From contig NZ_CP125957.1 of the NCBI RefSeq assembly GCF_030064125.1, positions 992,001 through 1,056,000 on the forward strand: a stretch of 64,000 bases of DNA, given 5' to 3'. Position 1 is the stretch's first letter; the number at the start of each line of letters is the position of its first letter. The stretch is from Pseudomonas sp. G2-4. Lineage in GTDB: Bacteria > Pseudomonadota > Gammaproteobacteria > Pseudomonadales > Pseudomonadaceae. Of the stretch, positions 5,832 through 27,410 are shown one piece after another. The notes beneath the pieces were generated by a model. The model was not told the origin of the DNA. It did not search any database and saw only the letters and a program-made list of their open reading frames with translations. The position numbers and the translations under genes are program-made.

Positions 5832-6992
<1,161 letters not shown>

Positions 6993-8944: not shown

Positions 8945-10843
8945 ATGTCGCACCAATCTGATTTGATCAGCGAGGACATCCTCGCCTACCTGGGCCAGCA
9001 CGAGCGTAAAGAGCTGCTGCGTTTCCTGACCTGCGGTAACGTCGACGACGGCAAGAGCACCCTGATCGGGCGCCTGCTGCACGACTCCAAGATGATCTAC
9101 GAAGATCACCTGGAAGCCATCACCCGCGATTCGAAGAAAGTCGGCACCACCGGTGACGACATCGACCTGGCGTTGCTGGTCGACGGCCTGCAGGCCGAGC
9201 GCGAACAAGGCATCACCATCGATGTCGCGTACCGCTATTTCTCCACCGCCAAGCGCAAATTCATCATCGCCGATACCCCGGGCCATGAGCAGTACACCCG
9301 CAACATGGCCACCGGTGCTTCTACCTGTGACCTGGCGATCATCCTGGTGGACGCCCGCTACGGCGTGCAGACCCAAACCCGTCGCCACAGCTTCATCGCC
9401 TCGTTGCTGGGCATCAAGCACATCGTCGTCGCCATCAACAAGATGGATTTGAAGGACTTCGACCAAGGTGTGTTCGAGTCGATCAAGGCCGACTACCTCA
9501 AGTTTGCCGAAGGCTTGAAGTTGAAGCCCACCAGCATGCATTTCGTGCCGATGTCGGCCCTCAAGGGCGACAACGTGGTGAACAAGTCCGAGCGCTCGCC
9601 GTGGTACACCGGCCAGTCGCTGATGGAAATCCTCGAGACCGTGGAAGTGGCGGGCGACCGTAACTTCACTGACCTGCGTTTCCCGGTGCAGTACGTCAAC
9701 CGTCCGAACCTGAACTTCCGCGGTTTCGCCGGCACCCTCGCCAGCGGCATCGTGCACAAGGGCGATGAAGTGGTGGTGCTGCCGTCGGGCAAGAGCAGCC
9801 GTGTCAAATCCATCGTTACCTTCGAAGGTGAGTTGGAACACGCCGGCCCAGGCCAGGCGGTGACGCTGACCATGGAAGACGAGATCGACATCTCCCGTGG
9901 CGACCTGCTGGTGCATGCCGACAACGTGCCACCGGTGACCGACAATTTCGAAGCGATGCTGGTGTGGATGGCTGAAGAGCCGATGCTGCCGGGCAAGAAA
10001 TACGACATCAAGCGCGCCACCAGTTACGTGCCCGGCTCGATTGCCAGCATCGTCAACAAGGTCGACGTGAACACCCTGGAAGAAGGTCCGGCCAGCGCGT
10101 TGCAGCTCAATGAAATCGGCAAGGTGAAGATCGCCCTGGATGCGCCGATCGCCTTGGACGGTTACGAGAGCAACCGCACCACCGGCGCGTTCATCATCAT
10201 CGACCGCCTGACCAACGGCACGGTCGGCGCCGGCATGATCGTCGCCCAGCCGCTGGCCCACGGCCACAGCACGCACCACGGCAAACTGGCCCACGTGTCA
10301 GTGGAGGAGCGCGCCCAGCGTTTCGGCCAGCAACCGGCCACGGTGTTGTTCAGCGGCCTGTCGGGCGCGGGTAAAAGCACGCTGGCCTATGCGGTGGAAC
10401 GCAAGTTGTTCGACATGGGGCGTGCGGTATTCGTCCTCGACGGCCAGAACCTGCGCCATGACCTGAACAAGGGCTTGCCGCAGGATCGCGCCGGGCGTAC
10501 CGAGAACTGGCGCCGTGCGGCTCACGTCGCCCGTCAGTTCAACGAAGCCGGTCTGCTGACCCTTGCCGCGTTTGTCGCACCGGATGCCGAAGGCCGCGAA
10601 CAGGCCAAGGCGCTGATCGGCAAGGAACGTTTGCTGACGGTCTACGTCCAGGCCTCGCCGACGGTGTGCGCCCAGCGTGATCCGCAAGGGCTGTACGCTG
10701 CTGCTGGCGACAACATCCCGGGCGAGTCCTTCCCGTATGACGTGCCGCTGGACGCCGACCTGGTGATCGACACCCAGTCGCTGACACTGGAAGAGAGCGT
10801 CAAGCAGGTGCTGGATCTGCTGCGCAAGCGTGGGGCGATCTAA
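8945..10843 (+). CDS. cysNC: fused sulfate adenylyltransferase subunit 1 / adenylylsulfate kinase
   Basis: A bifunctional enzyme. The N-terminal EF-Tu-like GTPase (about 1-440) drives APS formation with CysD; it shows the P-loop [27 protein letters not shown] and NKMD. The C-terminal APS kinase domain (about 455-632) phosphorylates APS to PAPS; it shows the P-loop [13 protein letters not shown] and [16 protein letters not shown]. At 632 residues it is the fused CysNC form common in Pseudomonas rather than separate cysN and cysC. It ends just before a strong terminator. Confidence 0.97.
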
Positions 10844-22765: not shown

Positions 22766-23146
22766 CTACGAAGTAGCCCGACTTGCCGCGAGTGTAATCG
22801 ACACGGACTCGGCAAATCGCAAGGCGTGGGGCTTGTCGACTTCGACTTCGGCGTACAGCACCGACGCGTTGGCCATGACCAGGTCGAGCAATTCCTGGGT
22901 CAGGCGTTCGAGCAGCGCGAAGCGGTTACCTTCCACATGGGCGATGATCGCCTTGGTGATGGTGCGGTAGTTCAGCGCGTGGTCGATGTCATTGTCGCGT
23001 ACTGCCTCTTGGGCGGCGTAGAGGATGGTCAGGTTGATCAGCACATCCTGCTTGTTGAGGATTTCATCCTCGTTGATGCCGATGAAGGTGCGCAGGCGCA
23101 GGTCCTTGACCTTGATGCGTGCCATGGCTGGCTGAAGTTGTGGCAT
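22766..23146 (-). CDS. folX: dihydroneopterin triphosphate 2'-epimerase
   Basis: Epimerises 7,8-dihydroneopterin triphosphate to the monapterin form. The 126-residue protein has the FolB/FolX fold: [21 protein letters not shown], the NYRTITKAI segment and the [10 protein letters not shown] helix near residue 90. FolX rather than the aldolase FolB is supported by its position between folE and the end of the folM-folE-folX operon. Start MPQLQPAM is kept because the ATG directly follows the folE stop (TAAATG). It may equally begin at the inner MARIKV. Confidence 0.92.
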
Positions 23147-23707
23147 TTACTTGCTCCGTCGAATCAATTGCAGGAACTCCTGGCGGGTGGTGCTGGACTC
23201 GCGGAAGGCGCCGAGCATCACCGAGGTGTTCATGGTCGAGTTCTGTTTTTCGACACCGCGCATCATCATGCACATGTGCTGGGCTTCGATCACCACCGCA
23301 ACGCCGGCGGCCTGGGTGACCTGCTGCACCGCGTCGGCGATTTGCCGGGTGAGGTTTTCCTGGATTTGCAGGCGGCGGGCGAACATGTCCACCAGCCGGG
23401 CGATTTTCGACAGCCCCAGGACCTTGCCCGTAGGAATATAAGCTACATGGGCCTTGCCGATGAAGGGCAACAGGTGATGTTCGCACAGGGAATAGAGTTC
23501 GATGTCGGCGACGATCACCATTTCATCGCTGTCCGAGGCGAACAGGGCGCCGTTGACGATCTGCTCGACGCTTTGCTCATAGCCATGGCAAAGGTACTGC
23601 ATGGCCTTGGCCGCGCGCACCGGGGTGTCGAGCAAACCTTCGCGCTCCGGGTTTTCGCCCAGGCCGATAAGGATCTCGCGGTAGTTCTGGGGCAGGGATA
23701 GTGTCAT
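23147..23707 (-). CDS. folE: GTP cyclohydrolase I
   Basis: Converts GTP to 7,8-dihydroneopterin triphosphate. The 186-residue protein has the zinc ligands in [10 protein letters not shown] and QAHHMC-type segment [11 protein letters not shown], and the conserved [19 protein letters not shown] and QIQENLT stretches. The ATG at 23707 ([17 protein letters not shown]) begins the conserved protein; the longer open frame upstream overlaps folM. It lies 20 bases after folM and abuts folX. Confidence 0.96.
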
Positions 23708-23727
23708 GGTACTTCCTCGAAACAAGG

Positions 23728-24438
23728 CTATTTGACGTGCCTTCCGCCGTTGACGGTCAGGGTCGTGCCGGTGACATAGGGGTTGTCCAGCAGATAACGC
23801 AGGCTCTGGTAGATCACTTCGCAGCCGGGCTCGATGCCCAGCGCAGATTTGGCCAGGGCCTTGGCACGGTAAGCTGCGTCGTCTTCGGGATTGAACAGTA
23901 GCAGGGCCGGGGCGATGCCGTTGACCTTGATGGCGGGCGCGTACTTCGCCGCGAACGACAGGGTCAGGCTTTCGAGACCAGCCTTGGTGGCGCAATAGGC
24001 AATGTGCTTGCTGCTGCCCTTGCGCGTCACATCATCGCTGATGTGCACGATATCCGCAGGCGTTGAGCGTTGCAGCAGCTCGGCGCAGCGCAGGTTGATC
24101 AGATAGGGCGCGAGCATGTGCACACCGACCATAGCGCTGAAAGCGTCCGTTTCGGCGCCTGGGGCCTCGGCCAGCCACGCCGAGGCGTTGTGCACGATGG
24201 CCCGCAACCGGTCGGTGTGTTGCTTGAGCTGTTCGATGAAATCCAGGATCCCGGCCTCGCTGGAAAGGTCGGCGAACAGCACGGTCGCCCCCAGGTCCCG
24301 CAGCGTCTGCACGCCCGGGCGTTCGGTGCGATACGTGGCGATCACCGGTTGACCGTCTTCCAGCAATCGCTGGGCGCAATGCAGGCCGACGCGCTGGGCG
24401 GCGCCGGTGATCAGGATCGGAGCGGTGGCGCTGGACAT
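23728..24438 (-). CDS. folM: dihydromonapterin reductase
   Basis: An NADPH-dependent short-chain reductase of 236 residues that makes tetrahydromonapterin. The cofactor motif is [15 protein letters not shown], as in pteridine reductases. The catalytic residues are in [21 protein letters not shown], and the C-terminus is [14 protein letters not shown]. It is the first gene of folM-folE-folX. In pseudomonads this pathway supplies the pterin cofactor for phenylalanine hydroxylase. The operon is divergent from the LitR-like gene with a shared 246-bp control region. Confidence 0.93.
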
Positions 24439-24573
24439 AGGGCAGCTCGGTTCACGACAAGAGCAAAACTATAACAGCGACCGGTCCATTCAAACCCAAA
24501 TGTTGACTACCATTGCATTTTCGCGAGCAGTGGCGACGCGTTGCTATCGAAAAAACAGCCAAAACGTATGCCA

Positions 24574-24596
24574 TTTCGAACGAAACGCAACGAAAC
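24574..24596. promoter_or_regulatory. repeats in the folM / LitR-like divergent promoter
   Basis: The 246-bp gap between folM and the regulator holds the palindrome TTTCGAACGAAA (24574-24585), followed by a direct repeat ACGAAAC-GC-A-ACGAAAC (24580-24596). These are the clearest candidates for an operator controlling either operon. No classical MerR spacer promoter (19-bp -35/-10) was seen. Confidence 0.3.
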
Positions 24597-24684
24597 CACA
24601 TATTGCTGATGTTTCTCCTTGTCATCTCATGACTAGGAGGGGGTAAACTGGGATCCAATTTGCCAGCCGGAATTGTCTGCCAAA

Positions 24685-25644
24685 ATGAGCGTAATCACAG
24701 ACGATAACTTCGTTTTCCAGGCCTCAGGGGCTTTAAAACGCGAAGATTTGTTCCCCATTCGTGAAGTAGCCCGATTGACCGGTGTAAACCCCGTGACCCT
24801 GCGCGCATGGGAGCGTCGCTACGGTTTTATCCAGCCTACCCGCACTGAAAGCGGGCATCGCCTGTACTCTTTGAGCGATATCGAAAAGGTGCGCAGCATA
24901 CTGGCCTGGATCGAGCGCGGCGTGGCGGTCAGTAAAGTGGGCAAGATCCTGGCGAAGACCGAGTCGGTACAAGCAGTCTCCGCGCTGATTTCATCCGATC
25001 TGGTCAGAGCCGATTACGCTGAGTGGCAACAGCAGGTAGCGGAAGCAGTACGCAACTTTGACGATATAGAGCTGGATCGCATCTACGGGCAGATCTTTGC
25101 CACCTACGCAGTGCCGATCATCTTCCAGGACATCCTCATGCCGCTCTGGCGGCAATTGTTGCAACGCCAGCAGGAGTTCGGGCAAACCAGTGAGTGGGTG
25201 TTTTTTGACGGCTTCCTGCGCTCGCGCATCATCCAGCGGCTCTTGCTCAAGCGTGAAGACCTGTCGCGCCGTGTCCTGATCAGCGCCATCGCCGGTCAAT
25301 GCCGTGAGCTGGAACTGCTGGTCACAGCGCTGTTCCTGTCCAAGGCAGACGTGGGCGTCAGGGTGCTGACGATCGGCCTGCCATTCGACGAACTGACCCT
25401 GGTGTGCCAGAAGATCCAGCCGTTGGCGCTGGTGCTGGTTTCCAACCATGCGCCGGGCTCCGAGTTTCCCAAGCGCCTGGGAAAATTGGCGATGAGCCTG
25501 GATTGTCCGTTAATGCTGGCCGGTGATGCGTCCGATCTGGCGCAGGAGTGCCTGGCTGGCTCCTCGATCGGTTGCCTGGGCAATGAGGGGGCGGTGATGC
25601 ACCATCGCTTGCGTCAATTTCTGACGGGCAACCTGGACACCTGA
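24685..25644 (+). CDS. MerR-family LitR/CarH-like regulator, class II type
   Basis: A 319-residue regulator. The N-terminal MerR helix-turn-helix (about 22-90) has FPIREVARLTGVNPVTLRAW and GHRLYSLSDIEKVR. The rest follows the layout of CarH/LitR photoreceptors: a four-helix part (about 100-180) and a Rossmann-like part (DVGVRVLTIGLPFDELTLV). The EH and HELG-type cobalamin ligands of CarH are not seen; the matching region reads AGQCRELELL. This fits class II LitR proteins, which do not bind B12 and depend on a partner LOV protein. Such a LOV gene is 0.7 kb downstream. The ATG at 24685 is preferred over a TTG at 24673. Confidence 0.8.
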   Translation: MSVITDDNFVFQASGALKREDLFPIREVARLTGVNPVTLRAWERRYGFIQPTRTESGHRLYSLSDIEKVRSILAWIERGVAVSKVGKILAKTESVQAVSALISSDLVRADYAEWQQQVAEAVRNFDDIELDRIYGQIFATYAVPIIFQDILMPLWRQLLQRQQEFGQTSEWVFFDGFLRSRIIQRLLLKREDLSRRVLISAIAGQCRELELLVTALFLSKADVGVRVLTIGLPFDELTLVCQKIQPLALVLVSNHAPGSEFPKRLGKLAMSLDCPLMLAGDASDLAQECLAGSSIGCLGNEGAVMHHRLRQFLTGNLDT

Positions 25645-25665
25645 ACGGGTGCCCTGCCTCACCTG

Positions 25666-26271
25666 TTATAGGTGCATGGTTGGATGGGTGAGACGGTGTT
25701 GCTGCAGGATGTATTGGCGCAGGCGCTCAGTCTCGTCCTGGTCATTCTGGTTCAAATGGTAGGCGAAAAAACCTTGATCGGTTTCCCGTTCGAAGGTGCC
25801 TCGCAACGAGATTCTCTCGTAGCCTGACGGGCTGAACCACAAGGCAAACTGCTTCAGTGGCTTGATACGACTGCGGTTTTCCAACAAGACGCCTTTACAG
25901 GACACTTCGTGGACCCAGAGAGATCCCGGCTGGCCCTTGATGTTTTCAAGTGCCACAGGTTCTTCGAGCGTCAGGCGCCATGGGCGTATCTTCGGTCCGT
26001 CTTCGTAGATACTCGGCACACCCAAACGCAGGTGCATCGCATGGAATTCGTCTTCCACCAGATGCAACGGAAAAGTCATTTGCTGGTTTTCGAAATTGGC
26101 TTGCAACGTGACCTGCTCGTTTGCCGCCAGACGCGTCAGCAGGTCACGGATCTGCGAACCACCGTTTACCAGCAAGCTCGACGTGACATCCCGCTCGTTC
26201 AATTGCGGGTTGTGCTGCATGGTCCGGATGAAATCCAGTTCATCCTGAGTCAGTAGGGCATCGCGCTGCAT
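25666..26271 (-). CDS. PilZ-like protein, degenerate c-di-GMP motif
   Basis: A 201-residue cytoplasmic protein with a YcgR-like layout: an N-terminal beta domain (about 25-95) and a C-terminal PilZ-like barrel (about 95-195). The two PilZ motifs are present in altered form, RPWR for RxxxR and EVSCKG for (D/N)xSxxG, followed by a late ETERLRQYILQQHR helix. c-di-GMP binding is therefore uncertain. It is 54 bases downstream of the LOV gene on the same strand, probably cotranscribed, and convergent with the LitR-like gene (21-base gap). Family assignment rests on motif reading only. Confidence 0.6.
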   Translation of the reverse strand: MQRDALLTQDELDFIRTMQHNPQLNERDVTSSLLVNGGSQIRDLLTRLAANEQVTLQANFENQQMTFPLHLVEDEFHAMHLRLGVPSIYEDGPKIRPWRLTLEEPVALENIKGQPGSLWVHEVSCKGVLLENRSRIKPLKQFALWFSPSGYERISLRGTFERETDQGFFAYHLNQNDQDETERLRQYILQQHRLTHPTMHL

Positions 26272-26325
26272 GGTCTACTCGAAATGATGATTTACATTTT
26301 CACTGGTGATTGTAGTGACTGACCG

Positions 26326-26802
26326 TTAATTCGCCGGTTTGTTTGTGCCGTTCGTCGCTTCGAGCCGGGCAATCGTTTCCCGGGCTTCGGCCAACTGTTG
26401 TTCCAACTGGGCGATGCGTTGCTGGGCCTTGACTTGGACGGTGACGTCTTTCTGAACGCCGACGAAATAGGTATGGCCGTCGGCCTCGCTTTTAACCGTT
26501 GATAACGACAGTTCATTCCAGAAGGGCATGCCATCCTTGCGGTAGTTGCGCAGCACTTCCCGGCACGACCCCCCTCGCTTCAAGGCATCGCGAATCAGCG
26601 CGAGAGCGGGTTGGTCGCGATCACCCGATTGCAGGAACCGGCAATCCTGATAAAGGATTTCATCGCGGTTGTAGCCTGTCAGCCGTTCGAAGGCTGGGTT
26701 TACGTAGATGAGAATATTGTCTTCGTCGCCTTCTTTCTCAGCGATGACGATCCCGTCGTTCGAAGCATTGATGACCAGTTGCATCAGTTGAGCGTTGATC
26801 AT
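26326..26802 (-). CDS. short LOV-domain blue-light photoreceptor
   Basis: A 158-residue stand-alone LOV protein with no attached output domain. The flavin-adduct motif is YQDCRFLQSGDRDQ with the photoactive cysteine at residue 54 (the usual GRNCRFLQ place). The following NYRKDGMPFWNELSLS and TYFVGVQKDVT complete the FMN pocket. The C-terminal helix (VKAQQRIAQLEQQLAEARET) is a coiled coil that likely dimerises. It closely resembles the P. putida short proteins PpSB1-LOV and PpSB2-LOV (MINAQLLQ..., DASNDGIV, EKEGD). Such proteins act as light-dependent partners of class II LitR. Confidence 0.9.
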   Translation of the reverse strand: MINAQLMQLVINASNDGIVIAEKEGDEDNILIYVNPAFERLTGYNRDEILYQDCRFLQSGDRDQPALALIRDALKRGGSCREVLRNYRKDGMPFWNELSLSTVKSEADGHTYFVGVQKDVTVQVKAQQRIAQLEQQLAEARETIARLEATNGTNKPAN

Positions 26803-26957
26803 GTAGAAGGCCCTTTAAACGTCCTTGTTGAAGCAGCATTCTAGAAGAAATCGCCAGGCTGTCCACTTGCCATTATGGGCTGTTGAGAGCCATTCGCAGT
26901 CCGGTGAGCGCTGCTGTTACTATCGCGGCTCTCTTACTTTGGTTCAGGATCAGATTG

Positions 26958-27410
26958 ATGAAAGTCGCCATTCTTTCCGGCTCGGTCTATGGCACCGCCG
27001 AAGAAGTCGCCCGACACGCGGCCAAACTGTTTCGCGACGCGGGTTTCGAAGCCTGGCACAACCCTCGCGCCACCCTGGCGGATATCCAGGCATTCGGCCC
27101 GCAGGCCTTGCTGGCGGTGACCTCTACGACGGGCATGGGTGAATTGCCGGACAATTTGATGCCGTTGTACTCCATCCTCCGCGACCAATTGCCTGGATTC
27201 TTTCGCGGTTTGCCCGGCGCAGTGATCGGCCTGGGTGACGCCAGCTACGGGGATACCTTCTGCGCAGGCGGCGAGCAGATGCTCGAGCTGTACGCCGAGC
27301 TGGGCGTGCGCGAAGTGCTGCCGATGCTACGGCTGGACGCCAGCGAAAGCGTTACCCCGGAAACCGATGCCGAACCGTGGCTCGCCGAGTTGATCGACGC
27401 CTTGCGTTGA
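26958..27410 (+). CDS. flavodoxin (MioC-like)
   Basis: A 150-residue FMN electron carrier. The phosphate loop is SGSVYGTAEEVA at residues 7-18, and VTSTTGMGELPDN and GLGDASYGDTFC are the isoalloxazine loops. Short length and sequence place it with MioC/YqcA-type flavodoxins. The ATG at 26958 starts MKVAILSGSVYG, preceded by CAGGATCAG. It is divergent from the LOV gene (155-bp gap). A link to photochemistry is only positional. Confidence 0.88.
   Translation: MKVAILSGSVYGTAEEVARHAAKLFRDAGFEAWHNPRATLADIQAFGPQALLAVTSTTGMGELPDNLMPLYSILRDQLPGFFRGLPGAVIGLGDASYGDTFCAGGEQMLELYAELGVREVLPMLRLDASESVTPETDAEPWLAELIDALR

Follow-up and report, generated by a model that had tools for sequence, protein, structure and literature searches.

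A single gene lies between the two halves of what appears to be a blue-light switch in Pseudomonas sp. G2-4: does its product belong to the switch, or does it merely sit there? An earlier note, made from the sequence alone, had read the locus as a compact light-response unit in which a short LOV photoreceptor works with a class II LitR regulator and may have a second output, through a PilZ protein encoded beside it, to c-di-GMP, motility or biofilm. The LitR-LOV half of the locus is already published; a LOV-to-PilZ output would be the new claim. We analysed a window of 64,000 bp (bases 992001-1056000 of a 6.65-Mb single-contig Pseudomonas genome) and surveyed its locus in related genomes, with the window's own proteins as queries; 'absent' below means not found with these queries.

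Layout of the locus

The gene order is folX-folE-folM (22766..24438, minus strand), LitR (24685..25644, plus), the middle gene, here called PZ (25666..26271, minus), LOV (26326..26802, minus) and a flavodoxin-like gene (26958..27410, plus; Flavodoxin_1, E 1.3e-18). The divergent fol genes and the flavodoxin-like gene are conserved neighbours, and the latter served as our control gene. LOV and PZ run in the same direction, 54 bases apart, and LitR converges on PZ with a stop-to-stop gap of 21 bases; the earlier note had described just this arrangement, with strands, coordinates and order of the three genes all correct. The folM-LitR gap (24439-24684) measures 246 bases in the window, and three relatives that were inspected (L043, L057, L072) have an ORF of 186-197 aa between folM and the next gene. 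In L076 and L079 a 592-aa ORF, acyl-CoA dehydrogenase-like by eye, separates LitR from PZ; the LitR-PZ gaps of L077, L078, L080 and L081 resemble those of this pair.

LitR (319 aa) is a class II LitR-like MerR regulator with an N-terminal HTH of MerR type (MerR_1, E 8.7e-16, residues 24-90), as expected of class II LitR/CarH proteins. It scores 82.6 bits against the CarH model, under the model cut-off of 400. Class II proteins retain just the four-helix B12-binding_2 part and lack a B12-binding domain; here a weak B12-binding_2 match (residues 115-159, E 0.024) is below cut-off, and the B12-binding domain is absent from the domain matches at E ≤ 1. The 158-aa LOV protein is of the short LOV type (PAS_9, E 5.3e-20), with the adduct cysteine, Cys54, within YQDCRFLQ as previously reported; the domain search found nothing beyond PAS_9, hence no effector domain. 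Its closest solved structures are 7yx0 ('Putative regulatory protein', 2.1e-72) and 7r5n ('Sensory box protein', 2.8e-69). Across the genome there is one full-length match to this LOV, nine others being PAS-type matches of 25-31% identity, and one copy of PZ. LitR has one further relative, 37% identical, and a third match that covers the HTH only.

Relation to the published light switch

The reading as a class II LitR and short LOV light response fits a published system that shares the gene order. In P. mendocina NBRC 14162, according to PMC9758184, PmSB-LOV has an FMN photocycle and, once illuminated, binds PmlR2, a class II LitR, and blocks its DNA binding; in vitro it lifts PmlR2 repression in a manner that requires Cys53. 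The cluster pmlR2-PME15565-pmSB-LOV is described there as conserved in Pseudomonas, with folM-folE-folX in the same region. Our locus is alike in having LitR, a middle gene and a short LOV gene beside folM-folE-folX, and the two systems further agree in their type of operator and in their proteins, a class II LitR-like regulator and a short LOV. Our locus differs in species, and in that the middle gene is left undescribed in the P. mendocina work: PME15565 is named once without description, and the term 'PilZ' is absent from the text (PMC9758184). Judging by gene order, PME15565 would be the PZ orthologue. P. putida KT2440 likewise combines class II LitR proteins (PplR1-3) with short LOV proteins (PpSB1-LOV, PpSB2-LOV), with photolyase, ufaM, folE and other genes as targets (cited in PMC9758184). 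Two short LOV genes, as in KT2440, occur in some surveyed genomes (G077, G103), one at the locus and one elsewhere.

A search of open-licence papers found nothing combining 'short LOV' with 'PilZ', and no description of the cluster's middle gene. P. cichorii LOV1 is a Pseudomonas LOV protein that affects swarming, but it is a 526-aa LOV histidine kinase (PMC11231323), and we rejected it on that ground as a precedent for control of motility by a short LOV.

Affinities of PZ

PZ (201 aa) of the window has no Pfam match at E ≤ 10, NCBIfam offered nothing usable for it, and a PZ profile gave 0 matches at E ≤ 1 among PDB sequences. At the family level, 26 among 50 aligned members have a PilZ (PF07238) match at E ≤ 10, the strongest at 1.5e-7, and seven members scanned singly gave three scores above the curated PilZ cut-off, three below it and one without a match. 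The PilZ label that had been proposed thus stands for the family and fails for the window protein itself. Annotations among the names shown are mostly hypothetical, with some 'PilZ domain-containing'. When set against three individual PilZ proteins from this genome, the PZ profile gave E 0.76, 0.0036 and 0.067, a weak similarity, because an unrelated control scored 0.047.

The further claim that this PilZ protein is degenerate is borne out by the residues: I95-R96-P-W-R99 stands in place of RxxxR, in the usual register of that motif (residues 95-99), and E122-V-S-C-K-G127 in place of [D/N]xSxxG, so that neither canonical motif is present in the window protein. The altered form is conserved among 104 relatives, with Arg at position 95 in 6, R96 and R99 in all 104, W98 in 103, S124 in 100 and G127 in 99; position 122 is Glu in 79, Asp in 17 and another residue in 8. 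Set against PF07238 proteins, PZ retains the S-x-x-G and Arg residues in a motif that is degenerate, the window protein being below detection. An AlphaFold2 model has a mean pLDDT of 79.1, with low values before residue 50 and values exceeding 80 from about residue 81 onwards; it shows a C-terminal beta-rich domain plus a helix. We would describe PZ from its sequence as a PilZ-related protein bearing R-x-W-R plus [E/D]xSxxG, and we do not claim c-di-GMP binding. On this altered motif such binding is doubtful, which also tells against c-di-GMP as the output of PZ suggested in the earlier note.

Distribution and adjacency in Pseudomonas

Of the 249 Pseudomonas genomes surveyed, 241 have PZ. A wider sample, 293 genomes drawn from the whole order, yielded it in 10, eight of them Pseudomonas and two of a sister genus. 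LOV was matched in 226 of the 249 at E ≤ 1e-25; 218 of these were counted as strong, at a cut-off near 1e-40 of our own choosing that scored eight genomes with PAS-type matches (1e-26 to 1e-34) as lacking LOV. LitR was found in 215 of 249 at 1e-60. The 31 genomes without a strong LOV include 29 that also lack LitR (exceptions G185, G222) and 29 that retain PZ (exceptions G093, G123).

The locus was determined in 242 of the 249 genomes (left out were G043, G093, G123, G192, G216, G217 and G225). In 201 of them PZ immediately follows LOV in the same orientation, with a spacing of 36-164 bp in 200 loci (median 64) and 507 bp in G041. PZ occurs with both LOV and LitR missing in 33 loci, six of which belong to genomes with a short LOV elsewhere (G024, G025, G065, G102, G173, G199); two loci have PZ and LitR without LOV, and six have LOV and LitR without PZ. 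Among the named loci, which are the best 80 of 408 and so close relatives, PZ and LitR are present in all 80 and LOV is adjacent in 76; the best-matching PZ relatives in this set come from Pseudomonas sp. K18, P. fluorescens ISL-33, P. thivervalensis and further members of the P. fluorescens complex. Four named genomes (L192, L202, L212, L213) lack an intact LOV beside LitR and PZ at this locus: three show none at all and the fourth, Pseudomonas sp. GM18 (L213), a 28-residue LOV piece; these are possible natural controls for LitR acting alone.

The survey of relatives that had been suggested earlier therefore found LOV-PZ adjacency conserved, where its lack would have spoken against a pairing, and an order kept in 201 of 242 loci is more than chance. 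Such short-spaced adjacency is as expected of an operon and weighs against an independent PZ. It supports a functional pair, in which LOV and PZ, by contact or through a shared regulated transcript, provide a second light output of c-di-GMP or motility type. We think such a pair unlikely: PZ stays without LOV in 35 of the 242 loci, across repeated changes in LOV, and its motif is as well conserved there (R96 and R99 in 37 of 37 sequences). The fol genes, too, are kept beside the locus, and none of the 135 loci in the tree below lacks the flavodoxin-like gene; the LOV-PZ adjacency thus reflects a generally stable region.

The position of PZ between LitR and LOV in most loci could also mean that it is a third, accessory part of the circuit, for example tuning LitR or LOV and dispensable for the core. 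This we consider quite improbable, given the 33 loci that retain PZ without either partner and the six that have both partners without PZ; moreover, the published switch functions in vitro with LitR and LOV alone (PMC9758184).

Gene loss and selection on PZ

On a quick tree of 135 loci, two of them from the sister genus, the minimum number of changes was 17 for LOV, 14 for LitR at the locus and 2 for PZ; this tree was made from the flavodoxin-like and PZ proteins, hence partly from PZ itself, and we had enriched its sample for LOV-less loci, both of which count against our reading. Among supported independent pairs, 10 differ in LOV; across these, LitR changed in the same direction in 6.7 on average and never in the opposite one (median p 0.0156, range 0.0156-0.0625), and PZ changed the same way in 0. 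Since LOV and LitR flank PZ, a single deletion removing both would remove PZ too. C-terminal remnants of LOV were detected in 7 of 37 LOV-less gaps versus 0 of 37 reversed controls, pointing to loss of LOV in those cases. That related strains keep PZ after losing the switch argues that PZ is independent of it, and a role as obligate LOV partner was rejected on this loss pattern. PZ is not essential either, because it has been lost in the six loci that retain LOV and LitR, a point that also goes against the reading we favour.

Selection on PZ was compared between loci without and with LOV. In independent pairs PZ had the same median dN/dS, 0.089, whether LOV was missing (15 pairs) or present (39 pairs), and the flavodoxin-like control gave 0.071 and 0.079, respectively; the equal PZ medians led us to reject clear relaxation. 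Other measures lean the opposite way, in favour of a LOV-PZ pair and against independence: pooled PZ dN/dS was 0.173 without LOV versus 0.143 with it, a slight lean to relaxation, the median PZ/flavodoxin ratio was 1.49 versus 1.14, and a cruder all-pairs estimate, whose pairs are not independent, leaned more strongly (0.225 versus 0.058). Because the loss pattern separates PZ from LOV and LitR and there is no clear relaxation without LOV, the LOV-to-PilZ output advanced in the earlier note is not favoured.

Another arrangement, also unlikely in our estimation, is that PZ is a near-core effector with an altered PilZ site (R-x-W-R), set downstream of a blue-light sensor in most strains. The LOV promoter, or LOV itself, would then tune a conserved c-di-GMP-type or ligand-free function, and stand-alone control would return upon each loss of the switch.

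Transcription of LOV and PZ

Upstream of LOV on the minus strand, a sigma-70-like promoter match (TGGACA-N16-TAGAAT) lies at 26838..26865; two such sites were found in the scanned region versus 1.9 expected by chance. The 54-bp LOV-PZ intergenic stretch (26272..26325, minus strand) contains the sequence TACAAT and, at 26300-26312, a short dyad, CAATCACCAGTGA. Many close relatives carry these with little or no change. They recur with two mismatches in L063, whose LOV gene is reduced to a C-terminal piece. We rejected the dyad as an element common to PZ genes, since 55 of 129 upstream regions, from certain clades, have it at ≤ 3 mismatches. Loci that have lost LOV must express PZ by some other route, which makes a separate PZ promoter likely; cotranscription with LOV in the window is possible. 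In P. mendocina transcription of pmSB-LOV is constant between dark and light (PMC9758184), which also speaks against the functional pair of LOV and PZ.

Operators and putative targets of LitR

The genome was searched for the published LitR-type consensus, T(G/A)TACA-N12-TGTA(C/T)A. Three exact operators were found genome-wide, all at light-type genes; at ≤ 1 mismatch there were 22 sites versus 9 for the reversed pattern. One exact operator lies just upstream of a RudS-type gene (2-thiouracil desulfurase plus DUF1722) that is followed by LitR1 and photolyase genes (L133, G000:C1:5408500-5428000, site at 9102). This is likely to be a light-induced operon of this genome. It shares its RudS-type, LitR1 and photolyase genes with the RudS-PhrB-LitR operon described in PMC11417400, and sits away from the LOV locus, being a target and not the locus itself. 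Of the other two, one is at the promoter of a Chalcone_3 gene and one at that of an SDR/amine oxidase/DUF1365/CMAS/DUF2878 cluster, which we call ufaM-like on gene content, without sequence comparison.

The Chalcone_3 operator (L132, G000:C1:2942000-2961500, site at 6153) lies between a dCache-GGDEF gene on the minus strand and Chalcone_3 on the plus strand, 203 bases upstream of the GGDEF start. Light might thereby reach c-di-GMP through LitR control of a diguanylate cyclase, and not via PZ. We hold this to be very improbable, and rejected the link: the same operator is just 31 bases from the Chalcone_3 start on its other side, and an exact site occurs in only 2 of 30 orthologous GGDEF loci, this genome included, both with the Chalcone_3 gene.

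Within the window there are zero exact operators. The whole window has 50 matches at ≤ 3 mismatches versus 17.7 expected in shuffles, the best with 2 mismatches, and neither the folM-LitR gap (24439-24684) nor the region upstream of LOV (26803-26957) contains a match at this level; on the lack of a match in these two regions, LitR control inside the window was rejected. In P. mendocina PmlR2 bound the folM promoter region, and folM and folE were light-induced 1.6- to 3.3-fold (PMC9758184). With no near-operator in the folM-LitR gap, LitR control of folM is unsupported by sequence in this strain.

A probable reading: a light switch with a separate gene inside it

Taken together, the locus is probably another instance of the known Pseudomonas light switch, one in which PZ, an independent gene, is caught between the two parts. 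In the dark, LitR would occupy TGTACA-N12-TGTACA operators. Blue light would drive formation of a Cys54-FMN adduct in LOV, and illuminated LOV would bind the DNA-binding domain of LitR, taking it off the DNA; for this strain the LOV-LitR biochemistry is carried over from the P. mendocina proteins as given in PMC9758184. The targets here would be the RudS-type/LitR1/photolyase operon and the ufaM-like fatty-acid cluster, both outside the window. PZ, a PilZ-related protein restricted to the Pseudomonadaceae, would have a role independent of LOV and LitR: the gene may be read on LOV transcripts and is probably also served by a separate promoter, and the protein would act on a target outside the light response.

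Comparative genomics thus sorts the published three-gene light cluster: LOV belongs with LitR, and PZ, on the reading we regard as probable, does not. The novelty that remains is PZ itself, a near-universal (241 of 249 genomes), uncharacterised and apparently PilZ-related protein with an altered ligand motif.
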